Shown here one piece after another: positions 2,384-62,264 of a stretch of 64,000 bases of DNA. Every line of letters begins with the position of its first letter. The stretch's first letter is position 1. Source of the stretch: Medicago truncatula. Taxonomy: Eukaryota; Streptophyta; Magnoliopsida; Fabales; Fabaceae. The translations under genes and the position numbers were made by a program. The stretch spans positions 13,356,001-13,420,000 of the forward strand of contig NC_053047.1 of the NCBI RefSeq assembly GCF_003473485.1, given 5' to 3'. The notes beneath the pieces are model-generated. The model worked only from the letters and a program-made list of their open reading frames with translations, was not told the origin of the DNA and ran no database searches.

Positions 2384-2470
2384 ATGCCGATACAACCAAA
2401 TATTACTATATGTGCTATTTTAAATGGTTGCAAGATTCATGAAAACACCTATGTTGCTAATAAATTTTTT
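2384..2470 (+). pseudogene. Short PPR-protein-like relic
   Basis: About 30 codons read MPIQPNITICAILNGCKIHE..., which resembles the start of the E-motif region of plant PLS-type pentatricopeptide repeat proteins (typical pattern: MP..P....WGALL.ACR.H.N). The reading frame ends without further PPR motifs. The same relic occurs at 28020-28105, so it predates the segmental duplication. The match is short and made by eye, and I hold it loosely. Confidence 0.3.
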
Positions 2471-2483
2471 AATACTAAATATT
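2465..2483 (+). repeat. Target-site duplication of the LINE (left)
   Basis: The 19-bp string ttttttaatactaaatatt is found here and again at 18825-18843 on the other side of the LINE. The paralogous locus at about 28101-28120 has it once, followed directly by the right-hand flank (agtctagtgagattcg). That is an empty site and proves the insertion. Confidence 0.9.
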
Positions 2484-2636
2484 TTTTTTTTGAAGAAGCT
2501 AAAATGGATTATATTACTAAAAGTCTGGAGATTTCAGCACAAGGAGTGTCAAAACCCCAGATGAAAGAGTCAAAATACAAGAAATAACAAAGAGTTGGAG
2601 CCTAAATAAGCTCAAAAAAATAAGAATGCTGCCCTG

Positions 2637-18843: not shown

Positions 18844-20090
18844 AGTCCAGTGAGATTCGATTGAGAGAGTAGACATAATTAATATATTATAATCACTATC
18901 ATTTTTATTAAGAAGATAAAGAAAAATAATTTAAATAATTTAATTGATTTGTGATAAATATTTGTCTCTTGAATGAATTATACGTTCGAATAGCTTCTTT
19001 AGAGACTCATTTAAATAAAAAACAAAAAACATGAAAACAAATGACTCTCATGTCATGAGCCCACTGGTATAGACCAGAAAACCATGACTCTGCTTGGATC
19101 TGTATAAATAAATTACCAACCAAGTGGATAATGGATATGTAGAAGAAAGAGCATAGATAATTTTTTTTATGAATGTGCTTGCAAGTTTCATCTTAGATCA
19201 ATTAATTTTTCTTACCTGATATCAACTTTACTCTTTGCTATTTGTATTCCAACTTATACCCTTAATTCTTTTTTTTTTTGGTTACAACTTATACCCTTAA
19301 TTCTAAATCATAATTTCACCCCAATTATTACGGCAGATACATCTTTTTTAGTAAAACACGTTCTTTGAAAATAAGCAATATCCCTTGTACAATTTCAAAA
19401 AGGAGCACATTAGTTTTTTAATATTAATATCCATCCAAGTTATAGGTAAATACCTAAATATTTGATGCGGTAATTGGAACAGAATTTGTACAATTTCAAA
19501 AAGGAGCATTTTAGTGGGTAGGTAGCTTTCTTTAGGTTCTCTTTTTTCAAAAAGGAGCATTATCTTTATTAAGAAACGATTGTCATGTTTTCTACCCCAA
19601 ATGAAACGATTGTCATGTTGAAATGGTAGTATTTACTTTATCATAGAAACATCGTCAAGAACGTATTAAGAGGGACATGATTAATGATCATAGTCATACA
19701 TTTATTATAATTTGATTATTATTTAAAACTAATTTTCCTCTATTATTTTTGAATCGATAGCAGCAAATTATCCATGTGCTGTATCATCAATTTTGACCTA
19801 AAATCAAGTTTAGTACTCTATTAGTTTCTCGATCCCTTCCAAATTATTTTTCCTTCTTTTATACATTTTTACATTTTTTTATGCGGTGTGATTTTTGATT
19901 TTCCGTCTTAGAGCTGCGTTTAAATAAGTTAGATCAAAAGATTTGCTTTGAACCTGTATATTTAATCAATGACTTTTGCATCAAAAATTATAGAAAGGTG
20001 ATTAATTATCTCCCTTGTCCCGTGCTTCTCGGTCTGTTCATTTAATTAACTTGAAAGATATTTACTTTAATTTGCTCTCCCACACACCAG
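18844..20090 (+). repeat. Duplicated flank upstream of RLK1
   Basis: 18841-19550 matches 28120-28830 almost base for base. 19560-20180 matches 35993-36565 and 44996-45711. It is therefore the 5' flank of the duplicated kinase unit. It contains no convincing gene. A small tandem duplication of GAAACGATTGTCATGTT lies at about 19574-19620 and is also present upstream of RLK3, but RLK2 is interrupted there. Short ORFs within it are AT-rich noise. Confidence 0.8.
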
Positions 20091-20182
20091 TATTTAAATG
20101 CATGTTCCCTCTCTATACCCACATCATAACTATCGAACACAAACAAAACTAAATAGCATAAACCACTTTCTTCTAAACCAAA
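20088..20182 (+). promoter_or_regulatory. RLK1 core promoter and 5' UTR
   Basis: A TATA-like TATTTAAA lies at about 20090-20097, roughly 90 bp upstream of the start codon. The next 80 bp are A/C-rich (…CGAACACAAACAAAACTAAATAGC…), typical of a plant leader. The same box and leader precede RLK2 (about 36472-36565) and RLK3 (about 45619-45711). The ATG at 20098 directly follows the box and would lie upstream of the expected transcription start, so it is probably not a uORF. Confidence 0.55.
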
Positions 20183-23100: not shown

Positions 23101-23359
23101 TAACTTTGTTACAATTTCATTTCCTGATAATCTTATAAAGATTTTGGATCCACATCTTTTACCAAGAGCTGAAGAAGGAGCAATAGAAGATGGAAATCAT
23201 GAGATTCATATTCCAACTATAGAAGATTGCTTTGTTTCACTTCTTAGGATTGCACTTTTATGTTCTTTGGAATCACCAAAAGAAAGAATGAATATTGTGG
23301 ATGTCACTAGAGAGCTTACCACAATCCAGAAGGTCTTTTTAGCTGGTGAGATGAACTGA
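20183..23359 (+). CDS. LRR receptor-like kinase, subfamily XII type (RLK1)
   Basis: Two exons, 20183-22883 and 22977-23359, with a 93-bp GT-AG intron inside the kinase domain after 'GYAPP'; 1,027 residues. Layout: hydrophobic signal peptide (about 1-37), LRRNT_2 cap ('DHLALLKFKESI', residues 42-80), about 20 extracellular LRRs of the LxxLxLxxNxxxGxIP type, a transmembrane helix (about 658-682), then a Ser/Thr kinase. The kinase has the glycine loop 'IGSGSFGSV' (about 720), the Lys of 'VAVK' (about 740), the catalytic 'HCDLKPSN' (about 848) and 'SDFGIA'. The Cys before the catalytic Asp makes it a non-RD kinase, the class that includes the immune receptors FLS2, EFR and Xa21. A plasma-membrane pattern-recognition role is likely by family only; the ligand is unknown. 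Relatives are usually annotated as At3g47570-like. The reading frame is intact. Confidence 0.93.
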
Positions 23360-23832
23360 TATTCCTATATCTTTATTAGAATCATAACTACGTCATTAAT
23401 TGCTTAAGGAATTAGAGTTTTATTTTTATCATCTTATTTTGTATTTCAAAATTCCCAAACTACAAAATATAATGGTAATAATGACCTTCTTGATTTTAAT
23501 TTCAGGGTCTTGAACAAAATTTCTAAGTCATTTGTGGAAAGAGAAGATATGCAGCATAACGTACTTTGGTTAAGAAAATGAATGTTCAGCTTGAATCACA
23601 TGTCGCTATACTTTGTTTACTAGTTTTTTATTCTCGAATTATGTACAATTGATAATTCTCCCATATTTATTTTATCTTCATTCTCATAAGAATTGTCAAT
23701 GTAGTTAATTCAATGGGTGTATATTTAATCAAATCTTTATTAAAATATGTGTTCAATTCCTAAGTATCTTAAACTTTGTTTGCCCAAATAAAAAAGCAAA
23801 CAATTCATGTGAACTGATTTTACTTCTTAGTA
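23360..23832 (+). other. RLK1 3' flank with probable 3'-UTR intron
   Basis: The sequence stays similar to the regions after RLK2 (39700-40200) and RLK3 (48907-49380). A TTTTAATTTCAG acceptor-like site near 23505 precedes 'gtcttgaacaaaatttctaag' in all three copies, which suggests a spliced 3' UTR. Homology stops sharply at 23832, where a CACTA-like end begins. Confidence 0.5.
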
Positions 23833-24200
23833 TGACTACAAGAAAATGGTGTTTTAGATTCAACAGGAAAAATGGATCCTAAAAGACAAATTGTGGATGC
23901 TAACAGCCTTTTAGAGTTAATATAGAGTCAAAAAAATTTACGACAATAAACGCTTGGATGCTAAACACTAACTTCCAATTGACGCTAAAATAGCATTTTC
24001 AAAAGCGGACGCTAAAATTAAAGCTGGACGCATATTAAAGGTATATATAATGTAGACACTACATAGCATCTATAAAAGTGGATGCTAAATTTAGCATCCA
24101 CAAGTGTGAATGCTAACACAATTTAAAACTAAAATGCAAAGTTTAGAGTTCAAAATTGTGGACCCTAATATTAGGATCCAAATAAAAAAAAATTGACGAT
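23833..24200 (+). mobile_element. Relic of a CACTA-type transposon end
   Basis: Starts GACTACAAGAAAA, one base away from a CACTACAAGAAAA terminus, exactly where homology to the RLK2 and RLK3 flanks ends. The next 350 bp hold many short repeats of the GGATGCTAAA / TTTAGCATCC type in both orientations, the layout of a CACTA subterminal region. The motif differs from the GCGACGGA motif of the complete element at 7801, so this is a different family. No opposite terminus was found, so the element is truncated or its other end has decayed. Confidence 0.6.
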
Positions 24201-25389: not shown

Positions 25390-25951
25390 ATATGTTAGGC
25401 TTAATTACACTTTTGGTCCTCGTGTTTTGGCCTACTCACGAAACTGGTCCTGCCCTTTTAAAACAGAACAAAACGGTCCTTCAATTATCATTTTTGTTGC
25501 ATTTTTCGTCCTACCTCCTATTTTCAAACTCCATAAACGCAGAGAAATGACAGTTTTAGGCGGTTTTAGATATACCCCTATGCTCAACCATGAAATCAAC
25601 AAGGAATAAAACATGTGGGCACAACAAATCTATTCTATTCAGCATACTAACAAAAAAAACCCTAATTTGAAACATATCTTAGAAATTAGAGTTTTTTTGG
25701 TTAGTGTGTTGAATAAAGTGAATTCTTTGTACCCACGTGATTTATTCGTTGTTTATTTCATGGTTGAACATAGGGGGTAGGTCTAAAACTGTCATTTCTC
25801 TGTGTTTATGGAGAATAAAATGGGGGGTAGGACGAAAAATGTAACAAAAATGATAATTGAAGGACCGTTTTGTTCTGTTTTATAAAGGCAGGACCAGTTT
25901 CGTGAGTACGCCAAAACACGAGGACCAAAAGTGTAATTAAGCCTATATGTT
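25390..25951. mobile_element. 548-bp MITE with long terminal inverted repeats, inserted in copy B
   Basis: The element runs 25397-25944. It starts AGGCTTAATTACACTTTTGG and ends with the inverse, and the inverted arms extend well over 150 bp (…cgtcctacc…cccctacc…). The 7-bp string ATATGTT flanks it (25390-25396 and 25945-25951), and copy A (about 290-305) has the uninterrupted site. The 'TTTTGGTCC' terminus and arm-loop-arm form are typical of Mutator-type MITEs in legumes. Short ORFs inside it are meaningless. Confidence 0.9.
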
Positions 25952-35992: not shown

Positions 35993-36565
35993 TTTACTTT
36001 ATCATAGAAACATCGTCAAGAACGTATTAAGAGGGACATAATTAATGATCATAGTCATACATTTATTAAAATTAGATTATTATTTAAAACTAATTTTCCC
36101 TTATTATTTAAATCGATAGCAGCAAATTATCGATGTGCAGTATCATCAATTTTGACCTAAAATCAAGTTTAGTACTCTATTAGTTTCTCGGTCCCCTCCC
36201 AATTGTTTTTCTTTCTTTTATACATTTTTTTAGTTTCTTTAGTTTGTTTCTGTGACTTCATAGTCTTTTTTGTTTTGACTTACCATTTTTATGCGTTGTG
36301 ATTTTTGATTTCCCGTCTTAGAGCTGCGTTTAGATAAGTTAGATCAAAAGATTTGCTTTGAACATGTATATTTAATCAATGACTTTTGCATCAAAAAATA
36401 TAGAAAGGTGATTAATTATCTCCCATGTCCCGTGCTTCTGGTCTGTTCCTTTAATTTGCTCTTCCCACACCAGTATTTAAAAGCATGTTCCCTCTCTATA
36501 TCCACATCATAACTATCGAACACAAACAAAACTAAATAGCATAAACCACTTTCTTCTAAACCAAA
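35993..36565 (+). promoter_or_regulatory. Promoter and 5' UTR of the RLK2 pseudogene
   Basis: Highly similar to the sequences before RLK1 and RLK3, including the TATTTAAA box (about 36472-36480) and the ACAAACAAAACTAAATAGC leader. The distal promoter is cut by the composite insertion at 35985, so RLK2 has lost its original upstream context. Confidence 0.5.
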
Positions 36566-39500
36566 ATGAAGTCTTTTTCTTTATACCTTCATCTCCTTTT
36601 TATGCTTACCTTAAATTTAATGTGGTTTGGTCCAAACAAAATAAGGGCAGTGGCTGCAATAGGAAACCAAACTGATCATTTGGCATTGCTCAAATTCAAA
36701 GAATCAATTTCCAGTGACCCATACAAAGCTCTTGAATCTTGGAATTCATCCATTCACTTCTGCAAGTGGCATGGAATCACATGCAGCCCCATGCATGAAC
36801 GAGTTACACAGTTGACTCTAGAAAGATATCAGTTACATGGATCTTTATCTCCCCATGTTTCCAATCTCACTTTTCTGAAAACACTCAACATTGGAGACAA
36901 CAACTTCTTTGGAGAAATTCCACAGGAGTTGGGTCAGTTGCTACATTTGCAACAACTTTTTCTCAACAATAACTCTTTTGCAGGTGAGATTCCTACAAAC
37001 CTGACATATTGTTCCAAACTCAAATTTTTGTTTTTGAGTGGGAACCATCTCATCGGTAAAATACCAACTGAAATCGGCTCTTTGAAGAAGGTTCAAGCAA
37101 TGACTGTTGCGAAAAACAATTTAATCGGAGGAATCCCTTCATTCATTGGAAATCTTTCAAGCTTAACACGTCTATTAGTTTCTGAAAACAATTTTGAGGG
37201 AGACATTCCACAAGAAATATGTTTTCTCAAACACTTGACATTTTTAGCTTTGAATGAGAACAATTTGTCCGGTAAGATTCCTTCTTGTCTTTATAATATC
37301 TCATCACTTATTGTCCTTTCGGTAACACTGAATCACCTTCATGGCTCTTTTGCACCCAACATGTTCCACACCCTCCCCAATCTTGAACTATTCTATTTTG
37401 GAGCAAATCAATTCTCAGGTCCAATTCCTATTTCAATTGCAAATGCTTCTGCCCTACAAAGATTAGACTTAGGACACAACATGAATTTGGTTGGACAAGT
37501 TCCAAGTCTTAGGAATTTACAAGATCTTTCCTTCCTAAGTTTGGAATTTAACAATTTAGGTAACATTTCAACTATGGACTTAGAGTTTTTAAAATATTTG
37601 ACAAATTGCAGTAAACTAAACATGCTTTCGATATCTTAAAATAATTTTCGAGGTCGTTTGCCAAATTCCATAGGCAATTTATCCACTGAACTTCTAGAAC
37701 TATATATGGGGGGTAATAAGATATCAGGAAAAATTCCTGCAGAATTAGGACGTCTAGCTGGCTTAATTCTCTTGACCATGGAGTGTAACTGCTTTGAAGG
37801 AATTATTCCAACAAATTTTGGGAAGTTCCAAAAGATGCAGGTATTATCTTTGAGGGAAAACAAGTTGTCAGGAGGTATTCCACCCTTCATAGGCAATCTC
37901 AGTCAATTGTTTGATTTAGAATTAAATCATAATATGTTTCAAGGAAGTATTCCTCCAAGCATAGGAAACTGTCAAAATTTACAATCTCTTTATCTTTCTC
38001 ATAATAAGCTTAGAGGAACCATACCTGTTGAAGTTTTAAATATTTTTTCTTTATCAAAGATATTGAACTTGTCACATAACTCTTTGAGTGGTAGCTTACC
38101 AAGAGAAGTGGGTATGTTAAAAAATATTGAAGCATTAGATGTCTCTGAGAATCATCTATCTGGTGATATTCCTAGAGAAATTGGTGAATGTACAAGCTTA
38201 GAATATATTCATTTGCAAAGGAACTCCTTCAACGGAACAATACCGTCCTCTTTGACTTTTCTCAAAGGTCTTCGATATTTAGACCTTTCAAGAAATCAAT
38301 TGTCTGGATCAATTCCTGATGGTATGCAAAATATCTCTGTTTTAGAGTATTTGAATGTTTCTTTTAACATGTTGGTAGGAGAGATACCGACAAATGGTGT
38401 ATTTGGAAATGCAACCCAAATAGAAGTGATTGGAAACAAAAAGCTATGTGGAGGTATTTCCCACCTGCATCTACCACCATGCCCTATCAATGGTAGGAAA
38501 CATGCAAAGCAACAAAAGTTCAGGTTGATAGCAGGGATAGTTAGTGTGGTTTCTTTTATTCTCATACTTTCATTTATCATAACTATCTACATGATGAGGA
38601 AAAGAAATCAAAAGAGATCTTTTGATTCACCTACAATTGATCAACTAGCTAAGGTTTCATACCAAGAATTACATGTTGGAACCCATGGATTCTCAGATAG
38701 AAACTTGATCGGATCAGGAAGTTTTGGTTCCGTATACAGAGGAAATATTGTTTCAGAAGATAATGTTGTTGCAGTAAAAGTCTTGAACCTCCAGAAAAAG
38801 GGAGCTCACAAGAGTTTCATTGTTGAATGTAATGCACTAAAAAATATTAGACACCGAAATTTGGTTAAGGTTTTAACATGTTGTTCTAGCACAAATAACA
38901 AAGGCCAAGAATTTAAAGCTCTAGTTTTTGAATACATGAAAAATGGAAGCTTAGAACAGTGGTTACATCCTGAGACTTTGAATGCAAATCCTCCAACAAC
39001 ATTGAACCTTCGTCGTAGATTAAACATCATTATCGATGTTGCTTCTGCATTACATTATCTTCATCGATAATGTGAGCAATTAGTCCTTCATTGTGATCTA
39101 AAACCAAGCAATGTCCTTCTTGATGATGACATGGTTGCTCATGTGAGTGATTTTGGCATAGCAAGACTTGTCTCAACCATTTCCAGTACCTCTAATAAGA
39201 ATACTAGTACAATTGGAATAAAAGGAACAGTTGGTTATGCTCCACCGGGTACGTTTTACATTCTTGAATCTTCCATTGTTTTTTTAATTCTTTAATTGTT
39301 ATATTTAATACCTTTTGTTACATGTTTTAGAGTATGGGATGGGTTCGGAAGTATCCACTTGTGGTGACATGTATAGCTTTGGAATCCTTATGCTGGAAAT
39401 GCTTACTGGTAGAAGACCCACTGATGAACTTTTTGAAGATGGTCAAAATCTGCATAACTTTGTTAAAATTTCATTTCCCAATAATTTCGTAAAGATTTTG

Positions 39501-39699
39501 GATCCACATCTTTTACCAAGAGCTGAAGATGGAAATCATGAGATTCTTATTCCAACTATAGAAGAGTGCTCAGTTTCCCCTTTTTAGGATTGGACTTTTT
39601 TGTTCATTGGAATCATCAAATGAAAGAATGAATATTGTGGATGTCACTAGAGAGCTTACCACAATCCATAAGGTCTTTCTAGCTGGTGAGATGAACTGA
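36566..39699 (+). pseudogene. LRR receptor-like kinase pseudogene (RLK2)
   Basis: Full-length paralogue of RLK1 and RLK3 with the same exon-intron layout (exon 1 to 39248, intron 39249-39330, exon 2 from 39331). Three lesions were found. TAA at 37637-37639 replaces a Tyr codon in the LRR region. TAA at 39068-39070 replaces the Glu codon of 'LHRECEQL', just before the catalytic loop. A 1-bp insertion at about 39577-39585 shifts the last 40 codons. All other codons stay in frame and the LRR, TM and kinase blocks are recognisable. The signal peptide is shorter by several residues ('MKSFSLYLHLLF'). The first stop would leave a secretable LRR fragment of 357 residues without TM or kinase, but nothing shows that it is used. 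Confidence 0.92.
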
Positions 39700-40540
39700 T
39701 ATTCTTATATGCTTATTTGAATCATAACCAACTCATTAATTGCTTATGAAATTAGAATTTTATTTTTATCATCTTATTGTGCATTTCAAAATTCCTAGAC
39801 TACAAAATATAATGGTAATAATGACCTTCTTGATTTTAATTTCAGGTCTTGAACAAAATTTCTAAGTCATTTGTGGAAAGAGAAGTTATGCAGCATAATG
39901 TACTCTGCTAAGAAAATGAATGGTCAGCTGGAATCACATGTGGCAATGCTTAGTATACTAGTTGCTATAAATAAACAATGTTTTCTGTATTGCTTTCTAA
40001 TTAAATGTGATGTGAGAATTGATAATTCTCCCATATTTATCTTCATTCTCATATGAATTGTCATTGTAGTTAATTCAATGGGTGTCGATTTAATCAAATC
40101 TTTATTAAAATGTGTTTAATTCATAAGTATATTAAACTTTGTTTGCCCAAATAAAACAACAATCAATTCATTTGAAATGATTTTACTTCTTGGTATATTA
40201 TTACATATGAATGATCAGTTACTTCCTTGGCAGTTAGAATCAAACTTAATTTTAAACTCAAAATCAATCATGTTAATCATAAGAAATAGTAAATCAATAT
40301 GCGTAAGCATATCTGAATTCATGATCAGATATCATTGACGTGATATGTCATTCTAGATCCATACACATTCTCAGTGAGAGAACTCTTTGTTATTCTCTTT
40401 ATCTCCTTGTGATGATGGGATGTCAACAAGATCGACAACCACTAGTATGTGTGACCTAGGGACCATGTTCTCCTTTATTTATAGAACCCAATTATGGTTA
40501 ATTATTGGCATTTCTATTTTATCCCCTCATAAAAATAGAA
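39700..40540 (+). repeat. RLK2 3' flank, duplicated after RLK3
   Basis: Similar to 48907-49690, including the UTR acceptor-like TTTTAATTTCAG (about 39845), 'atgatgggatgtcaaca' (about 40413) and 'tttatttatagaacccaatt' (about 40473). The duplicated kinase unit therefore extends at least 840 bp past the stop codon. Short ORFs here are noise. Confidence 0.75.
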
Positions 40541-41815: not shown

Positions 41816-41926
41816 GTTAGCTTCCATCATCATTTCATGAATAACACTTCAAAAGTAATGGCTGCAATCCTGACTTGTCATTATTTTTTGTGAATCTGTA
41901 TACATATTTAACCTATGTAAACATGG

Positions 41927-42091
41927 TGCACTACTAAAAAAACAAAAATTAGTGAGGGAAATTTAGTGAGGGAAAACATGAAATCCCTCTCTAATTCCGT
42001 CATTAAATTTTGCGACCAAGGAATTTGTGAGAAATTTTATGTTTTCCGTCACAAATTTCCCTCTCTAATTTTGCTTTTCCTAGTAGTGGTG
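41927..42091. mobile_element. 159-bp CACTA-type MITE
   Basis: The element is 41930-42088. It starts CACTACTAAAAAAACAAAAA and ends TTTTCCTAGTAGTG, and its TSD is GTG at both sides (41927-41929 and 42089-42091). Its interior is almost entirely inverted repeat with TTAGTGAGGGAAATTT / AAATTTCCCTCTCTAA words. The terminal CACTACT.. and the 'gtgaggg' words resemble the complete CACTA at 7801, which could have mobilised it. Confidence 0.88.
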
Positions 42092-42183
42092 TATGCCTAT
42101 GACTAGATTGTATATATTTTCTTAATTGTTTTTTAATTCACTTTTACATTTTCCTAACTATGCTTCATAATTCATTTCATATA

Positions 42184-44995: not shown

Positions 44996-45711
44996 TCGCA
45001 TCATCAGCATTATCTTTATTAAGAAACGATTGTCATGTTTTCTACCCCAAATGAAACGATTGTCATGTTGTAATGGTAGTATTTACTTTATCATAGAAAC
45101 ATCGTCAAGAACGTATTAAGAGGGACATAATTAATGATTATAGTCATACATTTATTAAAATTTGATTATTATTTAAAACTAATTTTCCCTTATTATTTGA
45201 ATCGATAGCAGCAAATTATCCATGTGCAGTATCATCAATTTTGACCTAAAATAAAGTTTAGTACTCTATAAGTTTCTCGGTCCCCTCCAAATTGTTTTTC
45301 ATTCTTTTATACTTAAATAAGTAATTTTTACATTTTTTTAGTGTTTTTAGTTTATTTTTGTGATTTCGTAGTCTTTTTACGATTCTGTTTGTTTTGATTT
45401 ACCACTTTTATGCGGTGTGATTTTTGATTTCCCGTCTTAGAGCTGCGTTTAATTAAGTTAGTTCGAAAGATTTGCTTTGAACATGTATATTTAATCAATG
45501 ACTTTTGCTTTAAAAATTATCGAAAGGTGATTAATTATCTCCCATGTCCGGTGCTTCTCGGTCTGTTCGTTTAATTGACTTGAAAGATAATTTCTTTAAT
45601 TTGCTCTCCCACACACCAGTATTTAAATGCATGTTCCCTCTCTATACCCACATCATAACTATCGAACACAAACAAAACTAAATAGCATAAACCATTTTCT
45701 TCTAAACCAAA
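44996..45711 (+). promoter_or_regulatory. RLK3 upstream region with core promoter
   Basis: The duplicated unit starts here (TCATCAGCATTATCTTT...). It contains the doubled GAAACGATTGTCATGTT, a TATTTAAA box at about 45619-45626 and the conserved A/C-rich leader before the ATG at 45712. This is the longest uninterrupted version of the shared kinase promoter in the window, together with RLK1's. Confidence 0.6.
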
Positions 45712-48700
45712 ATGAAGTATTTTTCTTTGTTGTCACCTCCACTTTTATACCTTCATCTCCTTTTTTTGCTTACCTTAAATTTAATGTGGTTTGGTCCAAA
45801 CAAAATTACGGCAGTGACTGCAATAGGAAACCAAACTGATCATTTGGCATTGCTCAAATTCAAAGAATCAATTTCTAGTGACCCATACAATGCTCTTGAA
45901 TCTTGGAATTCTTCCATCCATTTCTGCAAGTGGCAAGGAATCACATGCAGCCCCATGCATGAACGAGTTACAGAGTTGAGCCTAAAAAGATATCAGTTAC
46001 ATGGATCTTTATCTCCCCATGTTTGCAATCTCACTTTTCTGAAAACTCTCGACATTGGAGACAACAACTTCTTCGGAGAAATTCCACAGGAGTTGGGTCA
46101 GTTGCTACATTTGCAACGACTTTCTCTCAGCAATAACTCTTTTGTAGGTGAGATTCCAACAAACTTGACATATTGCTCCAATCTCAAATTATTGTTTTTG
46201 AATGGGAACCATCTCAATGGTAAAATACCAACTGAAATCGGCTCTTTGAAAAAGCTTCAAAGAATGACTGTTTGGAGAAACAAGTTAACTGGTGGAATCC
46301 CTTCATTCATAGGAAATCTTTCAAGCTTAACACGTCTATCAGCTTCTCGTAACAATTTTGAGGGAGATATTCCACAAGAAATATGTTGCTGCAAACACTT
46401 GACATTTTTAGCTTTGGGTGAGAACAATTTGTCCGGTAAGATTCCTTCTTGTCTTTATAATATCTCATCACTTATTGCCCTTGCGGTAACACAAAATAAC
46501 CTTCATGGCTCTTTTCCACCCAACATGTTCCACACCCTCCCCAATCTTCAAATATTCGATTTTGCAGCAAATCAATTCTCAGGTCCAATCCCTATTTCGA
46601 TTGCAAATGCTTCTGCCCTACAAATATTAGACTTAGGAGACAACATGAATTTGGTTGGACAAGTTCCAAGTCTAGGGAATTTACAAGACCTTTCCAATCT
46701 AAATTTGCAATCAAACAATTTAGGTAACATTTCAACTATGGATTTAGAATTTCTAAAATATTTGACTAATTGCAGTAAACTACACAAGCTTTCGATATCT
46801 TATAATAATTTTGGAGGCCATTTGCCAAATTCCATAGGGAATTTATCCACTGAACTTATTCAACTGTATATGGGGGATAATCAAATATCAGGAAAAATTC
46901 CTGCAGAATTTGGACGTCTAATTGGCTTAATTCTATTGACCATGGAGTCTAACTGCTTGGAGGGAATTATTCCAACTACTTTTGGGAAGTTCCAAAAGAT
47001 GCAGGTATTATATTTGTGGAAAAACAAGTTGTCAGGAGATATTCCACCGTTCATAGGGAATCTCAGTCAATTGTTTAAATTAGAATTAGATCATAACATG
47101 TTTCAAGGAAGTATTCCTCCAAGCATAGGAAACTGTCAAAATTTACAATATCTGTATCTTTTTCATAATAAGCTTAGAGGAACCATACCTGTAGAGGTTT
47201 TAAATATTTTTTCATTATTAGTATTAGACCTGTCACATAACTCTTTGAGCGGTACCTTACCAACAGAAGTGGGTATGTTAAAAAATATTGAAGATTTAGA
47301 TGTCTCTGAGAATCATCTATCTGGTGATATTCCGAGAGAAATTGGTGAATGTACAATCTTAGAATATATTCGTTTGCAAAGGAACATCTTCAATGGAACA
47401 ATACCGTCCTCTTTAGCTTCTCTCAAAGGTCTTCAATATTTAGACGTTTCAAGAAATCAATTGTCTGGATCAATTCCTGATGGTATGCAAAATATCTCTG
47501 TTTTAGAATATTTGAATGTTTCTTTTAACATATTGGAAGGAGAGGTACCGACAAATGGTGTATTTGGAAATGCAAGCCAAATAGAAGTGATTGGAAACAA
47601 AAAGCTTTGTGGAGGTATTTCCCATCTGCATCTACCACCATGCCCTATCAAGGGTAGGAAACATGCAAAGCAACACAAGTTCAGGTTGATAGCAGTGATA
47701 GTTAGTGCGGTTTCTTTTATTCTCATACTTTCATTTATCATAACTATCTACATGATGAGGAAAAGAAATCAAAAGAGATCTTTTGATTCACCTACAATTG
47801 ATCAACTAGCTAAGGTTTCATACCAAGAATTACATGTTGGAACCGATGGATTCTCAGATAGAAACTTGATCGGATCAGGAAGTTTTGGTTCCGTATACAG
47901 AGGAAATATTGTTTCAGAAGATAATGTTGTTGCAATAAAAGTCTTGAACCTCCAGAAAAAGGGAGCTCACAAGAGTTTCATTGTTGAATGTAACGCACTC
48001 AAAAATATTAGACACCGAAATTTGGTTAGGGTTTTAACATGTTGTTCTAGCACAAATTACAAAGGTCAAGAATTTAAAGCTCTAGTTTTTGAATACATGG
48101 AAAATGGAAGCTTAGAACAGTGGTTACATCCTCAAATTTTGAATGCGAGTCCTCCAACAACATTGAACCTTGGTCATAGATTAAACATCATCATCGATGT
48201 TGCTTCTGCATTACATTATCTTCATCGAGAATGTGAGCAGTTAATCCTTCACTGTGATCTAAAGCCAAGCAATGTCCTTCTTGATGGTGACATGGTTGCT
48301 CATGTGAGTGATTTTGGAATAGCAAGACTTGTCTCAACCATTTCCGGTACCTCTAATAAGAATACTAGCACAATTGGAATAAAAGGAACAGTTGGTTATG
48401 CTCCTCCGGGTATGTTTTAAATTCTTGAATCTTCCATTGTTTTTTTGAATCTTCATATGTTTCGGCGTAGTTATATATAATACCTTTTGTTACATGTTTT
48501 AGAGTATGGGATGGGTTCAGAAGTATCCACATGTGGTGACATGTATAGCTTTGGAATCCTTATGCTGGAAATGCTTACTGGTAGAAGACCCACTGATGAA
48601 CTTTTTGAAGATGGTCAAAATCTGCATAACTTTGTTACAAATTCATTTCCTGATAATCTAATAAAGATGTTGGATCCACATCTTTTACCAAGAGCTGAAG

Positions 48701-48906
48701 ATGGAGCAAGAGAAGATGGAAATCATGAGATTCTTATTCCAACTGTAGAGGAGTGCTTAGTTTCACTTTTTAGGATTGGACTTTTATGTTCATTGGAATC
48801 ACCAAAAGAAAGAATGAATATTGTCGATGTCACTAGAGAGCTTACCACAATCCAGAAGGTCTTTCTAGCTGGTGAGATGAATATTCTTATATGTTTGTTT
48901 ATTTGA
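45712..48906 (+). CDS. LRR receptor-like kinase, subfamily XII type (RLK3)
   Basis: Two exons, 45712-48409 and 48503-48906, with a 93-bp GT-AG intron; 1,033 residues. Signal peptide, LRRNT_2 ('DHLALLKFKESI'), about 20 LRRs, a TM helix ('FRLIAVIVSAVSFILILSF') and a kinase with 'IGSGSFGSV', 'VAIK', 'HCDLKPSN' (non-RD) and 'SDFGIA'. No stop or frameshift was found. The C-terminus differs from RLK1: a 4-base loss (CTGA) removes the ancestral stop after 'LAGEMN' and the frame continues for 8 codons to TGA at 48904-48906, adding a short hydrophobic tail (ILICLFI). Differences to RLK1 cluster in the LRRs ('WRNKLTGGIP', 'FEGDIPQEICC'), where ligand binding is expected. A membrane immune-receptor-like role is inferred from the family. 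Confidence 0.93.
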
Positions 48907-49700
48907 ATCATAACTAACTCATTAATTGGTTATGGAATTAGAATTTTATTTTTATCATCTTATTGTGCATTTCAAAATTCCCAAACTATAAAATATAATG
49001 GTAATAATGACCTTCTTGATTTTAATTTCAGGTTTTGAACAAAATTTCTAAGTCAATTTGTGGAGTTATTCAATGGTTTGGGTGGTCAGCTGGAATCACA
49101 TGTGGTAATGCTTTGTTATTTTCTAATTTCAACATACATTCTCTATAAAAAAAAATATATATATGTTGTTTGTATTGCTTTCTAATTAAATAATGTGAGA
49201 ATTGATAATTCTCCCATATTTATCTTCATTCTCATAAGAATTGTCACTGTAGTTAATTCAATGGGTGTCGATTTAATCATATCTTGATTATAAAAATTGT
49301 TCAATTCCTAAGTATCTTAAAATATATTTGCCCAAATAAAACAATAAACATTTCATTGTGAAATGATTTTACTTCTTATTACTAAATATGAATGAGTTAC
49401 TTACTTCGCAGTTAGAATCGAACTTAATTTTAAACTCTAAAGTCAATAATGTTAATCATAAAAAATAGTAGATCAATATGCATAAGTGTACCTGAATTCA
49501 TGATCAGATAAAGTTGATGTGATATGTCTTACTAAATCAATACACATTCTCAGTGAAAGAACCCTTTATTACTCTCTCTATCTCTTTCTGATGATGGGAT
49601 GTCAACAACAACTACTAGTATGTGTGACGTAGGGACCATGACCTCTTTATTTATAGAACCCAATTATGGTTCATTATTGGTATTTTTATTTTATCCTTTG
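48907..49700 (+). repeat. RLK3 3' flank, duplicated unit
   Basis: Matches 39720-40540 after RLK2 and, in its first 450 bp, 23370-23832 after RLK1. It includes the UTR acceptor-like TTTTAATTTCAG (about 49030). Homology fades at about 49700. Confidence 0.75.
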
Positions 49701-50260
49701 ATAAATGTAGAATTACCCATTAGTCTATAGACATTAAAGGCTCACACTCTATTAGATACTCATAAGCCCAATTTAGCCAAACCTTATTAGATAACATTAA
49801 ATGGACCTAATTTAAGTGACAATCAACAATATAAAATTATTCGTATATAAGGCCAATGTTGGATTATTAATAGAATAATCTCCCACTTGGACTATATTTG
49901 CAACCTTATAATTATGCATTGCAAAAATTATCTCTATGAGCTAAAATGACTCTTATTATTGAATGTATTTATAACCAACCCAGTCCATTAATCATGCCAA
50001 CATAGGATCAAAACAGCCATCGTAACTTGTTTCGGACTTGCCAAGGCCCAATCCAACTAAGTTCTAGTATAACCCAAGTTTACTAAGTGGGTGACACCGT
50101 ACGATGGACACGCCCTAAACCTACTGGGTTATGGTACGGGTCGTGAGTTCCTCACCAATGGTCTAAAAGTTACTCACATCCGTACAAGCTGAGAGCTCCT
50201 CACCACCATGAGTGTTACTCATGTCCGTTGATGGACGATTTGACAAGTACATAAAATAGA
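49701..50260. other. Unassigned intergenic sequence
   Basis: About 560 bp. It contains two short related blocks ('gagttcctcaccaatggtctaaaagttactcac' type, near 50147 and 50192) but no ORF of interest. Confidence 0.3.
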
Positions 50261-51529: not shown

Positions 51530-52285
51530 GTGATTCGATTCATACATCATACTTCCTTTGATATATAAATTAATTTACTATTTTTTCTTTGATGCCAAGC
51601 TGTAGTTTTTCTTCTATTTGAAAGAAGTAACTCGGTGTTTCTGGTATCCAGATTGAAAGGATTTTCACCTTCATTGTTGAAAATGCGGGCTCACTCCAAA
51701 ACTTGTGACTGCCAAGATGCAATATGAACGATTATGCAGTGGAACAAATAAACCAAAAGATTTCAATGATTTCCATCTTAGATTTGAGATACTGCATCAA
51801 AATTGGTGGTAATTCTATATAAACAATCGAGAAGAACTTCAAACATTTGGAAGTTTTCTGTCGTAATATGCATCTGATAGAAACTTTGAGAAAACCCTTT
51901 GAAGATAACATCTTCACAGGGTTTTCTAGAAGTTTCTAACAGATGCATATTGTGACTGAAAACTTCCAAGCATTTGTAGTTCTTGTTGATTGTTTCTATA
52001 GCATTGCCACCAATCTATTTGTTGCAAATCTAAGATGGAAATCATTGAAAGCTTTCGGTTTATTTGTTGCACTGCAAAATTGTTCATATTGTATCATGGA
52101 ATGCACAAGTCTTGGAGAGAGCCAACATTTTCAGTAATGGAGGTAAAAACCCTTTCAGCATGGATACCAGAAACATTGAGTTACTTCTTACAAATAGAAG
52201 AAAAACTACGACTTGGCATCAAAGAAAAGACAATAAATCAATTTATACATCAAAGAAAATATGAAGTATGATTGAATCAGTCGAG
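51530..52285. repeat. Long inverted repeat (about 375-bp arms, 3-bp loop)
   Basis: The left arm (about 51530-51906) is the reverse complement of the right arm (51910-52285), roughly 85% by eye with several small bulges. The centre is GAAGAT-AAC-ATCTTC at 51901-51915, so the loop is only 3 nt. Blocks that pair include 'tttctttgatgccaag', 'tttctggtatcca', 'aacaaataaacc' and 'atgatttccatcttagat'. Small ORFs in the arms are mirror images and not convincing genes. RNA from either strand would fold into a near-complete hairpin. The identity of the arm sequence is unknown. The right arm and part of the left arm recur at 57233-57830. Confidence 0.85.
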
Positions 52286-52379
52286 TCTTTGAACTGGTTT
52301 TTTTTTGTACGAGGTATTCATACAACACAATCAATTATATAACAAGTGTACCATATAATATTTTACCACAATTCATATT

Positions 52380-53170
52380 TGTTAATTTATATCCATATCT
52401 TACAACATCTTGAGCTTGATTATCACCCCGTTTGCTCATTTCCTCTTTTTGTGAGAGAACATCTTCGAGCTTCTAGTTGAGTAATGAGCGCATCTTTCTC
52501 ATGATTATAATTCATGGGAGGGGTTGGTTGCAAGTATCTGTTGAATTTTTTTCATAAGAATATTACTATATCATTTAGAAACTTTTGAATTAAACATATC
52601 TATGATTATGATCTTAATTGAATGATCTAGGAACCTTCACACATTCGATATGCAATCAAGATAATCACAAATTTACACAACCGTATGTTCGATCTTAACA
52701 TAAATATTGAAATTCATTTTAAAAAATGGATCTAAAACAAAAAATGAAAATACACACTATCTAGTCAAAATAGGATCAAAAACATTACAATAATTATAAA
52801 TCAAGCAGAGGATTGATGCTTTTAAATTGATCATAATTTCTAAATTATCATAAAATAAATTAATTCAAAATAAAATATAATAGATTTAGGAGATTATATA
52901 TTAATTTAATAATTATTAAAAATTTAAATCAAATAATGTTTCTTTTAGGCTTACCTTTTTCCGATATTTAATCAAATAAATTATAGCCGTCAGAGATTTG
53001 TCATGGAGATCGCAAAAACTAAAAATATAGTCCACGGATCTTGTTGTCTCCTCGCTGTAGATCTAGTAGAAAAAAACCATAAGATTAAAGAAGGGAAAAT
53101 AATCCAATAAAAACTATATATCAATATATGACTAAATAAGATAAAAGTCCTTAGGTTGAATACACACTTG
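52380..53170 (-). other. Conserved non-repeat stretch of unit 1, possible decayed gene piece
   Basis: The minus strand of 52390-52560 and the equivalent 57890-58080 carry a 77-codon ORF in unit 2 ('MNYNHEKYALITPLEARRCS'). In unit 1 it is broken by a 4-bp insertion ('ggttggttgc') and other changes. I do not recognise the protein. The unit-1 stretch 52981-53130 (equivalent to 58264-58412) is also closely conserved. Sequence between them in unit 1 (52720-52980) is missing in unit 2. Confidence 0.3.
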
Positions 53171-53176
53171 TATATA

Positions 53177-56100
53177 TATATTGTTATCACGATTTTGGGG
53201 TATCAAGTCATTAATTAGGCTTGAACCTTTCAATCTTTGATATTCTCTATTTTTTCTTGGGAAGGGTAAAATTGAGAAAACCTTTAGAAACTCTAAGTTC
53301 GGGGGTCGTTTTCGTTACGGGAAGGTGTTAGGCACCCGTAACGACTATAGTATTCTATAGGAACCGCTTTCCTAGCTTTATGTCTACGCTTTATTTTTAT
53401 GCTTATTTATTGAAAAGAAAGTTTATTTTGTTTAAGAATGGAGGGAGGAAACGTTTGAGATTTTATTTTATTGGACTTGGAGAGGTTTTGACCTCTTGCC
53501 TACATACCCTTTTAAGGGATCAAAATTCCATGTAGTTCTCTCTCAAAAATATTTTTGTGTGTTTCAATTGATTTTAAGTTTTGAAAAAATGGTTTTAAAG
53601 AAGGGAAAGAGGCCGTAAAGGCATGAGAGAAGAAAATGGTGAATGGTTGGTTCAATTATTAAAAAAAGTCTAAGTTGGAATTAGAGTTCATTTGAGTTTT
53701 TCTTAAGAAAATGAAGGGAAAATTCAATGGAGTTTCGACTCCAAGCTTTATTATGAAAAAAAATAATTCAAGTGATGGAATTTGCTTATTTAAAAAAGAA
53801 TATTTTCCTAAGTATCGCGTTCCCTAAGCATACATCTAAAGCGGTAAATCATCATACAACGTGTGTGCGTGTCGGTGCTTGTGTCGGTGTACATCATTAG
53901 AGTCCATTGTCCGTTACATTGGCCCTAGTTTACATTCTATGGTCTTGCAAGAAATTAAAAAAGAGAAATTGAAACTACCTAAATTTACATGCCAACTTTA
54001 ACATAGAAATTGAAGGGTAAAAATGCCTAAACTACAAGAAATTGAGATGGAGGTGGTAGAATGCTTATGAAATGCATGAAACATGAAGTAAAAAGGTTAG
54101 TAAAATGGGGTGTAAAATGATAGAACAAGTGAGCAAAGGAATACGAGATAAACGGTAAAAATGTCAACAATAACCAAAATGTAAAAAAGAAACACATTAC
54201 TTGCAACACAAGAAACTAACAAATCACATCAAAAACAGTAAAACAAACACATGATCAGAGGCATATTCATCACAAAATAGCATATCAATCATTCATACCA
54301 TGCCAAGATCTCATGAACAATTATAGCAAGAAAATTCACAAGTTTAGACAAAGAAAGGGAGCAAATCAATCAAGAAAACATCACATATGTTTTTATCATT
54401 TTTTAACATGTAAAAACATCACAAAAATATCAAAAATGCATCAAGAAACACATAGAAATTTTTAGGAATTTTTACAAGAAAATTTGAGCACACAGGAGGT
54501 TCACATAGCAAAACAGAGGGTGCACATAGCAAGAAATAGCAAAAACGCAGGAAACCACAGGGAAAAAAAAGGCCCAAGCCCAAGCCTATTGGACCTGGAC
54601 ACTCAGGGAGCGTTGGATTGATCCAGGGGATGAAACCCTAGGTCTAACGGCCAAGATCAAGGGAAAATGGACCGGACTTGGACCGGTCCGGTTCAGTGGC
54701 CTATATATATGTGGAGGCACCGGTTTATTTCATTTGCTACTCCCATTTCTCTCTCTAACTCTCACCTTCTCTCACTTGGTTCTTGTCTTCTCTTTTCTCT
54801 CCTCGCCGGTTTCTGCAGGAAACGGCCGGAGAGGATGAAGATCGGCCGGAACCTTCAAAGGTCCGCCGGAATCTTCATCTTCTCCGGCGAGAACTCCAGG
54901 TTCCGGTTGACCTAAGTTTCCAGATCTAACCCAAACTAACCCTAAACCACTCGTCTCTTCATTCTAAACACGAATTTGATATCAGAATTTGCATGCAAGC
55001 TTGGAATCGATGTAGATCGGAGAATTTGTTTACGGTTTTCAAAGATTTTTTTAGGTTTTCGGTTTTTTGAAAGAAACTTCTTGAAACTCCGCTGATCTAC
55101 ATTGATTCAGTCTTGTTGATGTTTTTGAGAAAGAAAGTGAAGTTTAAGTGTTACCTGTGGTTTTAATCGGAGATTTCGAACCGGAATCTTCAGAAAAAGC
55201 TTGAATCTGATTCTGTTTGTTGATTTCTTACTTTAAAACCGAAAATAAATCGGTGTTGTTCCTTCTTCTTCTTCACCGGTTCAATTTCTTCATCTTCTTT
55301 CCCTCTTCTTCTTCACTGATTCTCTGTGATCGGTGCTGGAGTTTATCACCGATTGGTGATGAATTCGCGCCTTGAATTGCAGAGAAACCGGTTCAATGAT
55401 GATGATTCCTTGATGAATCTCTGAGAACTGTAGCGAATTTGATGAATTTGTTGGTGAATTGTGGTTCTGGAAAGCTAGGGTTTGAAGATTGTTCTTCACG
55501 TTCTTGGTGATTTTGGATTTTGATCCTAACTGAAAAGAGAGAGAAATTTCTCTCTGTCTGTGATGTGGCGTGTATTGTGTGGCTCTCTGTGGCACTGTGC
55601 ACTATTTATAAGCTGCCAAGTGTGATCCTGGACCAATGAAATGGTGACACCTGTAATTTGGACATAACAAACTCGGCCTTGTACCATTTGGACTTGGGGA
55701 CCTTTCTGCAAAATAAGAAAATTGAAGGACTGGACTGCAATTTACAGAAAAGGACCAAAAAATGCAATTTTAAAAAGTATTGGACTAAAATGCAATTTTA
55801 GAAACTGTTTCAGGGACTAAAATGCAATTAAAATAAAATTGGACAAAACGTAAAGAGAAACCTAGAATAAAATCAACAAAAGGACTAAAATGAACCAATT
55901 ACAAAAATGAGGTGTTTTAAAATACCTCTTTGTCGAAATTTCAACAGGAAAAGACCAAAATGCCCCTAGGGACTAAACTGACTCAAATGCAATTTTGAAA
56001 TGGGTTTTTTTTTACAAAGACTTAACAATGATTTATACAGTCGAATTGAAAAGACTTAGAGACAAATACAGGGACAAAAATGGGTTCCACTGCAGGAAAT

Positions 56101-56349
56101 GACCAAAATACCTTTTTGTATGATTTTTTGCAGATGCTTTGAAATAAAATGCAAGAAAGACACTTTGGATGGTTTTATGCAAGAAAATCAAAGACAAAAT
56201 CATGATTGAAAATACTTCGGGACAGAGACAGTAAAATATGCAGGTGAAACAAAGTAAAGATTCAGAGTAAAACAGAAGTAAATTGACAAATATCAGTGGT
56301 GGAAAAGCAATTTGGATGAGTATTTTTAGGTCCAAAATCAGGGTATAGC

Positions 56350-56355
<6 letters not shown>
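53177..56355 (+). mobile_element. Solo LTR, gypsy-type (Ogre/Tat-like suspected), 3,169 bp
   Basis: The LTR is 53182-56350. It begins TGTTATCACGATTTTGG and ends CAAAATCAGGGTATAGCA, so the ends are imperfect inverted copies of each other (TG...CA). The TSD TATAT lies at 53177-53181 and 56351-56355; the target is (TA)n, so it is weakly diagnostic alone, but unit 2 lacks the whole block. It contains GGAAGGTGTTAGGCACC (about 53321), a CTATATATATG promoter box (about 54703) followed by a CT-rich leader, and many 'aaaatgcaattttag/ggactaaaatg' words in its last 700 bp. ORFs inside (for example 54667-54915 and 55290-55595) are not genes. Confidence 0.85.
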
Positions 56356-56390
<35 letters not shown>

Positions 56391-56410
56391 TATAGAGATA
56401 GAGAGAGAGG
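56351..56410. repeat. (TA)n-(GA)n microsatellite
   Basis: About 18 bp of TA repeat followed by a longer GA/GATA-type run. The shorter equivalent at 58571-58592 in unit 2 shows that the locus varies in length. Confidence 0.9.
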
Positions 56411-57232
56411 ATGAATGTAAGCAGCGCCGATTGCTTGTATTGTAACAGATAACCTAGGAACACATTTATAAATAGGTCATTTGAGGAGTTGTTGGTGTAA
56501 ATAGGTTAGGTTTCATTGACGGGCTTCACGAGTCCAAGAAGTATAGTGGATATATGGGCTCCTTCATTATATCTTGTTTGGACAAGGCCGACCTTTTCAC
56601 TACATATCCTTTTCTGATTAAGAATTTCTTTTCCCATCTTGTACCCTTCTCCTACGCCCTATTTTTTTTACAAAAATGACCATGAGATTTTCGGATTCTA
56701 TAATCCGAAATGAATTTTACCCCTATTTTGAGGTGGAAAAAAGAGTTCTCACCAATTCATATTTTATAATCTCAAAATCCCAAAAATTAGGGCGTGTTCT
56801 TTTTTTTTTTTTTTTTGGACTGTACAATCTGAACACCTCCTAAACACCTAGATGGTGTAAAATTCGGCAAGTGTACCAAAATATATCGTGTAACATAGTA
56901 GTAAGTTATCGTCTCCGTAGGGATTATCATTCAACTCGGTAATTGGCGGCATTTATTAGAAGTAGAGAATTTAGAAAAGATGAAGTGGTTTGTGAGGTTT
57001 TAATTGACTTGTCAAATACAAGAATAGGTATGTGGTTCAGAAGTATAATCGCGATTAGAGAATCCTTGAATCCCCCTTCATTATTTGTTGGAATTAACTC
57101 GGTTAATTATTAGTTTATGACCTAACTTTCGATTTAAGAAAGTAGAACATGTTGCCGTGATGAATCTGCAGAAGCTTAATTTTAATATCGCCACAATTCA
57201 ATTAGTTACAATTGTGAAATTCCCCTTCATTG
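56411..57232 (-). repeat. Athila-like LTR/leader block, first copy
   Basis: Matches 58590-59410 closely. It contains 'agcagcgccgattg', 'gggcttcacgagtcca', two 'ttYtataatccgaaa' phrases, and 'gtgtaccaaaatatatcgtg...gttatcgtctccgtagggatt', which resembles the leader of Athila-type elements. No coding sequence. Confidence 0.5.
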
Positions 57233-57590
57233 ATTATGCAGTGGAACAAATAAACCAAAAGATTTAATTGATTTCCATCTTAGATTTGAGATACGGCATC
57301 AAAATCGGTGGTAATTCTATATAAACAATCGAGAAGAACTTCAAACATTTGGAAGTTTTATGTCGTAATATGCATCTGATAGAAACTTTGAGAAAACCCT
57401 TTGAAGATAACATCTTCAAAGGGTTTTCTAGAAGTTTCTAACAGATGCATATTGTGACTGAAAACTTCCAAGCATTTGTAGTTCTTGTCGATTGTTTATA
57501 TAGCATTGCCACCAATGTTGATGCGGTGTCTCAAATCTAAGATGGAAATCATTGAAAGCTTTCGGTTTATTTGTTGCACTGCAAAATTGT
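57233..57590. repeat. Shortened inverted repeat (second copy)
   Basis: Arms of about 175 bp around GAAGAT-AAC-ATCTTC (57403-57417). The central 30 bp are a perfect palindrome here (…aaccctttgaagat…atcttcaaagggtt…), slightly better than in the first copy. The remaining right arm (57591-57830) has lost its partner. Confidence 0.85.
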
Positions 57591-57846
57591 TCATATTGTA
57601 TCATGGAATGCACAAGTCTTGGAGAGAGCCAACATTTTCAGCAATGAAGGTAAAAACCCTTTCAGCATGGATACCAGAAACATTGAGTTACTTCTTACAA
57701 GTAGAAGAAAAACTACGACTTGGCATCAAAGAAAAGACAATAAATCAATTTATACTTCAAAGAAAGTATGAAGTATGATTGAATCAGTCCAGTCTTTGAA
57801 CTGATTTTTTTTTGTGTTCGAGGTATATTTCATACAACACAATCAA

Positions 57847-58080
57847 TTATGCAACAAGTGTACCATATAATAATTTACCACAATTCATATTTGTTAATTT
57901 GTAGTCATATCTTACGACATCTTGAGCTTGATTATCACCTTGTTTTCTCATTTCCATTTTCCAATTCTCTGCTCTTTTAGTGAGAGAACATCTTCGAGCT
58001 TCTAGTGGAGTAATGAGCGCATATTTCTCATGATTATAATTCATGGGAGGGGTTGCAAGTATCTGTTGAATTTTTTTCAT
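57847..58080 (-). other. Unidentified 77-codon ORF in unit 2
   Basis: The reading frame has a protein-like, charged composition ('EARRCSLTKRAENWKMEMRK'), unlike the AT-rich noise ORFs around it. The unit-1 equivalent is frameshifted. It could be an exon relic of an unknown gene. No start context or splice model is convincing. Confidence 0.25.
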
Positions 58081-59410
58081 AAGAATATTACTATATCATT
58101 TAGAAACTTTTGAATTAAACGTAAATATGATTACATTCGATATGCAATCAAGATAACCACAAACTCACACAGCCGTATGTTCGATCTTAACATAAAATAT
58201 TGAAATTCATTTTAAAAAATGGATCTAAAACAAAAAATGAAAATACACACTATCTAGTCAAATTATAGCCGTCAGAGATTTGTCATGGAGATCGCAAAAA
58301 CTAAAAATATAGTCCACGGATCTTGTTGTCAACCTCGCTGTAGATCTAGTAGAAAAAAACCATAAGATTAAAGAAGGGAAAATAATCCAATAAAAACTAT
58401 ATATCAATATATGATAAAAGTCCTTAGATTGAATACACACTTATAATTCATTTGACTCAAATGAAATCACAAAGGATGTATCCCACCTTTACATATCATA
58501 ACCAAATCCACTGTACAAATTAATACATGTGAGCTCGTATTAAAAAGCCAAATAAAACATAACATGGGAAGATATATATATATAGAGAGAGATAGGATGA
58601 ATGTAAGCAGCGCCGATTGTTTGTATTGTAATAGTTTGTTTAACTAGGAACACATTTATAAAGAGGTCATTTGAGGAATTGTTGGTGTAAATAGGTTAGG
58701 TTTCATTAACGGGCTTCACGAGTCCAAGAAGCATAGTGGATATATGGGATCCTTCCTTATATCTTGTTTGGAAAAGGCCGGCCTTTTTCACTACATCTCC
58801 TTTTCTGATTAAGAATTTCTTTTCCCACCTTGTACCCTTTTCCTACGCCCTATTTTTTTTTACAAAAATGACCATTTGATTTTCGGATTCTATAATCCGA
58901 AATGAATTTTACCCCTATTTTGGGGTGGGAAAATGTGTTTTCACCAACTCATATTTTATAATCTGAAAACCCCAAAAATTAGGGCATGTTCTTGTTTTTT
59001 TTTTACTATACAATCCGAACACCTCCTAAACACCTTGATGGTGTAAAATTCGGGAAGTGTACCAATATATATCGTGTAACATAGTAGTCAGTTATCGTCT
59101 CCGTAGGGATTATCATTCAACTCGGTAATTGGCGGAATTTATTAGAAGTAGAGAATTTAGAAAAGATGAAGTGGTTTGTGAGGTTTTAATTGACTTGTCA
59201 AATACAAGAATAGGTTATGTGGTTCAGAAGTATAATGGCGATTAGAGAATCCTTGAATCCCCCTTCCTTATTTGTTGGAATTAACTCGGTTGATTATTAG
59301 TTTATGACCTAACTTTCGATTTAAGAAAGTAGAACATGACGCCGTGATGAATCTGCGGAAGCTTAATTTTAATATCGCCGCAATTCAATTAGTTACAATC
59401 GTGAAATTCC

Positions 59411-61736: not shown

Positions 61737-62018
61737 CTATTTGATACGGGCTTTAGTTGTTGTCGAAAATGTTATTCCAAGGAGAAGTGAACATTTATGA
61801 TATTCTTTCATATCTAGAATTACAAAGTCCTCTGGAAATACAGATTGGTTTGCTTTCACCATTACATCTTTGACGATGCCATAAGGGTTTTCAACTTTAC
61901 TGTCTGACAATGTGAGAGTTATGTTTGTTGGTTTCATCTTTACCTTTTTAAGTTTCTTAAACATTGATGATGGCATCAAGTTTACACTTGCTCCAAGATC
62001 ACATAAAGCAGGATTCAT
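61737..62018 (-). pseudogene. Athila-like gypsy aspartic protease fragment
   Basis: A 93-codon minus-strand ORF reads 'ALCDLGASVNLMPSSMFKKL' and '...TNITLTLSDSKVENPYGIVKDV...FPEDFVILDM'. This is the retropepsin region of Athila-type Ty3/gypsy polyproteins, with D-L-G-A-S in place of the usual D-S-G-A/T. No RT or integrase follows. It belongs with the gag relic and leader-like blocks to its left, but the pieces are scrambled by later events. Confidence 0.8.
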
Positions 62019-62264
62019 TTTTATGTCTTTGATGACGGAGCATCATATGATATTTTTTGCTATGGTTTTAGTACTTTTGAAGGCACACCTTATTGTAGCT
62101 ACACAGTTGGAGGTGGCATAAACATAGGCGGAGTTGCATGAGAGAGATAAGCGGAGGTTGTGTTGTGTTAGAAGTTTTATGCTATATCTTCTCGGGTGTA
62201 CGTTGTTCGCTGATAAGATGAACATACACATTGAGTTGATATTTCTTGACACGATGGTGGATGT

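Follow-up and report, generated by a model that had tools for sequence, protein, structure and literature searches.

In the stretch of Medicago truncatula DNA analysed here (the window, 64,000 nucleotides, C6:13356001-13420000), a long palindrome carries a fragment of an F-box/LRR gene in both arms. We interpret it as a gene-derived inverted duplication, with a probability of about 0.9 judged from sequence comparisons. The locus fits a known route, in which an inverted gene duplication leads to a proto-miRNA hairpin. That the gene-derived origin and the proto-miRNA type hold jointly appears quite probable. A first-pass annotation had pointed to this type of structure as a proposed source of young miRNAs, and the derivation of the arms from the F-box/LRR gene family lends support to that view.

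Geometry and gene content of the inverted repeat

The left arm (51531-51906, plus strand, 376 bp) and the right arm (51910-52279, minus strand, 370 bp) face each other across a 3-nt loop, AAC (51907-51909), in agreement with the two arms of ~375 bp described in the first-pass annotation. The turning point is the micro-hairpin GAAGAT-AAC-ATCTTC (51901-51915). The arms had been estimated to be ~85% alike; the value measured in the arm alignment is 82.9% over 379 columns (314 identical, 53 substitutions, 3 gaps). As anticipated, RNA from either strand gives a long duplex. The two strands each fold as a single end-to-end stem, with energies of -434.9 and -431.5 kcal/mol and z values of -36.5 and -46.9 relative to 20 dinucleotide shuffles per strand. 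None of 4227 Rfam families, among which a young miRNA family need not be present, reaches its gathering score anywhere in the window. The region to the left of the left arm has nothing in common with the right flank.

The palindrome was used to search the genome (429,922,655 bases, 42 contigs) with a tool that skips very common words. All 6 candidates were scored and yielded 13 matches, among them both window hairpins; these counts are lower bounds. Outside the window, matches fall at four places. Each covers one arm or less and none is two-armed. Three of the four places are paralogous F-box/LRR genes, L009, L010 and L011 (two on C5, one on C3). A genome search for the parent gene of the arms had been suggested beforehand, and these relatives are what it recovered. 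L010 is open across two exons. Its 316-aa product matches the F-box and LRR families of Pfam, the N-terminal F-box scoring 20.6 bits for a cut-off of 20.5. L009 has no intron and contains four in-frame stops within the matched stretch; it is therefore probably a processed pseudogene. L011 is a more distant paralogue, at about 60%.

Each arm holds, in its inner ~278 bp, about residues 86-178 of the F-box/LRR protein. The fragment is in sense orientation at 51629-51906 (plus strand) and inverted at 51910-52182 (minus strand). Left-arm identity is 79.5% with L009 (278 bp, ungapped); with the two exon pieces of L010 it is 78.3% over 230 bp and 85.5% over 55 bp. For the right arm, identity is 72.4% with L009 over 286 bp and 72.9% (221 bp) and 81.8% (55 bp) with L010. 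Both arms resemble one protein-coding gene family well past the length of a 21-nt site. The GT..AG introns of L010 (350 bp) and L011 (572 bp) are exactly missing from the arms, where the exon ends are joined. Similarity to the genes stops at 51906, immediately ahead of the loop, and the genes themselves continue with different sequence. With identity to the nearest genes at only ~79%, the direct parent would have been lost or have drifted.

The F-box parentage surfaced only through the genome search. Nothing exceeded the Pfam cut-off in ten open frames of the hairpin region, in the six left-arm frames or in three frames of the right arm of the second hairpin (X at stops), and a search of solved structures with one arm frame gave no match. 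Sub-cut-off Pfam matches on hairpin-region and arm frames (TMEM61, DUF7746, DUF5091, DUF2109 and RavZ_cat) were dismissed.

L010 is a putative FBW2-like gene. FBW2 is described as a protein of 317 aa with an F-box at its N-terminus, highly conserved across flowering plants (PMC2914764), and L010, with 316 aa and an N-terminal F-box, fits this size and layout. FBL9, FBL20 and SKIP1 are presented in the same article as FBW2 relatives without the overexpression effect of FBW2. FBW2 is reported to mark AGO1 for degradation (PMC9035678).

In a seven-sequence tree, the arms form one clade (support 0.937), to which L010 is joined (0.890). The arms are closer to each other than to any gene recovered. 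Distances from the left arm to L009 and L010 are about equal (0.205 and 0.201). At 9 sites, both arms have a common state that differs from both L009 and L010.

Differences were also counted at first, second and third codon positions. Between genes, the counts are 21/16/50 for L010-L011, 20/18/35 for L009-L010 and 28/19/41 for L009-L011. This third-position excess indicates that the gene branches are under coding constraint. Counts for the left arm, right arm A and right arm B (the right arm of the second hairpin) are, respectively, 21/19/48, 31/22/49 and 30/18/49 with L011; 14/14/28, 19/18/32 and 18/15/32 with L010; and 20/17/20, 28/23/23 and 26/19/23 with L009. The left arm differs from right arm A by 18/15/13 and from right arm B by 15/11/12. 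The arm-arm comparisons and all three comparisons of L009 with the arms are flat by codon position. The excess seen when the arms are compared with L010 or L011 may come from the gene branches alone, and the counts point to no codon signal assignable to the arms, before or after they split. The idea that the arm lineage was once coding was dropped, because the codon counts cannot tell it apart from constraint acting along the gene branches.

Flanks, tandem copy and order of events

The outermost part of each arm is not F-box sequence. The outer left arm (51531-51600, plus strand), separated from the F-box fragment by about 30 bp (51600-51628), matches a block located upstream of a Nodulin_late gene in locus L012. 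The outer right arm (52214-52279, minus strand) matches the same block and is contiguous in L012 with the right flank (52280-53172, minus strand): the segment 52441-52214 is found there in one uninterrupted stretch. Pieces of the right flank recur at many places, with at least 46 matches in the genome search (30 of 30 candidates scored). One nearby frame contains no Pfam family above cut-off. Since the outer arm and the right flank are found side by side at other sites, it is probably the right arm that is original, with the left arm as its inverted copy.

In L022, L023, L024 and L027, all on the contig of the window, the right flank lies upstream of 3' F-box gene pieces, in the same orientation as at the hairpin. 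A fifth 3' piece is found in L021, about 2 kb past the right-flank match. None of the relatives searched carries the hairpin's own F-box piece adjoining the upstream block. Ten relatives were scanned for inverted repeats longer than 60 bp (11 stretches, L021 being represented twice) and one was found, in L021. This repeat (1053-2039) has arms of 382 and 381 bp, 82% alike, with a 224-bp spacer. It adjoins a right-flank relative, and its sequence is unrelated to the window hairpin. A block of ~180 bp of the right flank (about 52850-53030) matches L025, L026 and L028, on several contigs, with three copies in L026 and two in L028; no family was found for it.

In L012, the right-flank-like and outer-arm-like blocks (1523-3599) are located upstream of the Nodulin_late (NCR) gene, the common block lying 212-445 bp upstream of its first ATG. 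Such a gene is to be expected in the Medicago clade. The five NCR promoter motifs were taken from PMC3613412. For motifs 1 and 5, the proximal promoter of L012 outscores every window position, and for motif 3 it beats all window places but one. Motifs 2 and 4 score unremarkably, in L012 as well, and none of the five is prominent in either hairpin region. Across the loci, motif 1 scores best in L012 (0.88 of maximum), followed by L023 (0.80). The motif 3 score of L012 (0.79) is equalled by L010, L021 and the window at 30072. An NCR-like frame pattern, which would miss intron-bearing genes, matched in L012 only among 12 loci and the window. Passages from PMC8982390 contain nothing decisive on the NCR-promoter question. 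We consider the link between the hairpin's upstream block and NCR promoters as a lead only.

The first-pass annotation had noticed that part of the palindrome was re-duplicated at 57233. The second copy is real (copy B, 57232-57787). It belongs to a larger tandem duplication and was not duplicated as a hairpin alone. Segments 51730-53172 and 56386-57223 match segments 57232-58445 and 58570-59410, with order and orientation kept. In detail, the flank of the second hairpin (57788-58445, plus strand) matches 52280-53172, and the downstream parts of units A (56386-57223) and B (58570-59410), both on the plus strand, match each other. From these matches, copy B arose through a ~2.2 kb tandem duplication with its junction inside the left arm. 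The junction cuts this arm, and hairpin B therefore keeps only 177 bp of it; its right arm is whole. Unit A alone contains a TG...CA insert of ~3.2 kb (53182-56350), possibly a solo LTR. This label comes from the insert ends, and the TATAT found on both sides is low-complexity sequence.

Units A and B differ at 13 of 544 positions in the palindrome and at 71 of 1470 in the flanks (24/454, 3/185 and 44/831 for the three pieces; Fisher p 0.016). The lower value of the palindrome might hint at constraint, but divergence in the middle flank piece is just as small, and no conclusion on palindrome constraint was therefore drawn. Divergence between the arms is 13.6-14.4%. This exceeds the A/B divergence, so the palindrome likely predates the tandem duplication. 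Arm rates were also compared. With both outgroups agreeing, the counts are 7 versus 21 changes for right arm A (p 0.013) and 7 versus 15 for right arm B (p 0.13), and tests with single outgroups gave p from 0.005 to 0.18. Arm rates thus look uneven in some of the tests; this was not relied on.

Origin, silencing potential and rival explanations

These observations suggest the following order of events. An internal, spliced portion of an F-box/LRR gene would have joined an unrelated upstream block to give the present right arm and right flank, a step seen indirectly through the relatives. This segment would then have been copied in reverse from the micro-hairpin GAAGAT/ATCTTC, creating the left arm and the 3-nt loop. 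The position of the micro-hairpin at the turning point suggests fold-back copying, and we infer the reverse-copy step from two points: similarity to the gene ends at the loop, and no TSD stands out. The 2.2 kb tandem duplication, itself directly visible, later copied most of the palindrome. The insert present in unit A, LTR-like by its ends, would have entered afterwards.

If transcribed, the RNA would form a ~370-bp imperfect duplex that DCL2/3/4 would dice into mixed 21-24-nt siRNAs. A minus-strand transcript starting in the right flank would carry the left arm as antisense. siRNAs antisense to the F-box fragment could silence paralogues, which corresponds to the proto-miRNA stage of the Allen/Fahlgren model. 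To assess targeting, we used a plant target-scoring scheme (mismatch 1, G-U 0.5, doubled at positions 2-13, cut-off <=4). For the left arm, antisense 21-mers within the cut-off number 93/258 on L010, 80/258 on L009 and 28/258 on L011. The corresponding values are 21/254, 48/254 and 12/254 for the right arm, 32/258, 67/258 and 15/258 for right arm B, and 32/157, 27/157 and 1/157 for left arm B. A control LRR-kinase gene gave 0 for all four arms, and one shuffled left arm gave 0 on L010. Elsewhere in the window, near-matches to palindrome 21-mers number 2, versus 2-5 in five shuffles.

The hairpin could nevertheless be a neutral relic, that is, an inverted duplication that is untranscribed, or silenced only in cis by 24-nt siRNAs, and is decaying amid transposon debris. 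We regard this as somewhat probable. In copy A, 307 of 370 aligned arm positions still form Watson-Crick pairs, and arm 21-mers are still able to match paralogues, two points at odds with a relic. In its favour, no codon phase is observed between the arms and no change is compensatory: among 18 ungapped arm columns that differ between hairpins A and B, 16 are Watson-Crick in one copy only and 0 are compensatory (for 5 of the 18, the left arm of copy A was used for the part absent from B). The tandem duplication has also truncated the left arm of the second hairpin, and the LTR-like insert breaks unit A. The locus had initially been put forward as an undescribed regulatory unit; differences between the arms that follow neither codon nor pairing constraint count against this. 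Among the matches listed, literature titles and abstract openings do not name the locus, which is no proof of its being undescribed. On the present comparisons, it is doubtful that the hairpin is active as a silencing locus today. A more specific scenario, which we consider very improbable, is that the hairpin is expressed and that its siRNAs damp FBW2-like F-box genes, whose Arabidopsis counterpart removes AGO1, so that silencing capacity would be raised. In this scenario, expression might even be nodule-linked, since in one relative this upstream block precedes a gene for a nodule peptide.

A different origin would be capture of the F-box fragment by a Pack-type or Helitron-like transposon. 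The transposon would have dispersed the chimeric unit along the chromosome, and the palindrome would have formed locally as a side product. The recurrence of the right flank with a 3' F-box piece at several places of the same contig is in line with this idea, but these copies may be ordinary segmental duplicates, and we hold such a capture to be unlikely.

Least of all do we favour a MITE or foldback DNA transposon whose ends have eroded: the outline recalls the MITE at 25396-25945 (long palindrome, nearly no loop, arms alike at 247 of 281 ungapped positions), but the inner part of each arm is exonic gene sequence, and this very unlikely reading was rejected on a TSD signal at chance level and on the absence of other two-armed copies in the genome search. 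The best score in the TSD scan, 9, lies at a position inside the arms, and 5 of 200 random placements attained it as well; at the outer ends of the palindrome, the best candidate is a 6-mer, not above chance. The view expressed at first pass that this is no obvious MITE thus stands. The hundreds of copies with TIR and TSD that would have spoken for one did not appear, the search giving four other places without a second arm (lower bounds).

The MITE at 25396-25945 is a long palindrome with a 9-bp TSD, TATATGTTA, and ends GGCTTAATTACACTTTTGGTCC; the paralogous region 1-2260 corresponds to the empty site. A shorter imperfect palindrome at 41892-42121, with CACTACTA in both arms, resembles a CACTA-type MITE. 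An imperfect inverted repeat of ~600 bp (8419-9012) has TTTTTGGTC close to both ends. A tandem array at 13663-14418 contains about 3.8 copies of a 201-bp unit and overlaps a 63-bp period. An LRR receptor-kinase region is present in three ~4-kb copies, 89-91% alike (19632-23833, 35993-40196 and 45082-49713). The frame is split in the second and open, with 902 aa, in the third. On the minus strand, a frame at 61737-62042 weakly matches an aspartyl protease (E 0.0035, below cut-off) and is perhaps a decayed retrotransposon.

Comparison with known systems and significance

Gene-derived inverted duplication, the origin we prefer, is documented in Arabidopsis, where 16 MIRNA loci have been traced to inverted duplication of coding genes (Fahlgren 2007, PMC1790633). 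In this scheme, the first stage of MIRNA birth consists of large foldbacks giving mixed siRNAs (PMC1790633, citing Allen 2004), and proto-miRNA loci are defined likewise in PMC13128112. As in MIR161, MIR163 and other Arabidopsis loci (PMC1790633), the arms resemble one gene family along the arm length and members of the family are plausible targets. The window hairpin differs from the Arabidopsis loci by its very long stem and intron-less arms, and it is known from sequence alone. MIR163 reportedly carries the promoter of its gene (PMC1790633), whereas an unrelated upstream block is found here. The Arabidopsis S-locus sRNA precursors (PMC13128112) are also long hairpins, and mixed siRNAs would be expected in both cases, but those precursors are transcribed and acting.

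The same type of comparison can be made in legumes with the soybean CHS inverted repeat. There, the I locus consists of near-identical copies of a coding gene and is able to silence the family in trans. Both loci are inverted repeats of a coding gene of this potential kind, with the difference that the window hairpin is a fragment ~79% like its nearest paralogues.

The hairpin seems to stand at an early stage of the proto-miRNA route, or to be fading already, and does not look like a jumping gene. It offers a snapshot of the proposed first step of miRNA birth, in which one can point to the related genes, to the intron that is missing, to the arm that is probably original, to its copy and to the place of fold-back. 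The intact paralogue L010 provides a testable target. If active, the locus would be a young hairpin tied to a possible AGO1 regulator. If silent, it would be an example of a failed proto-miRNA.
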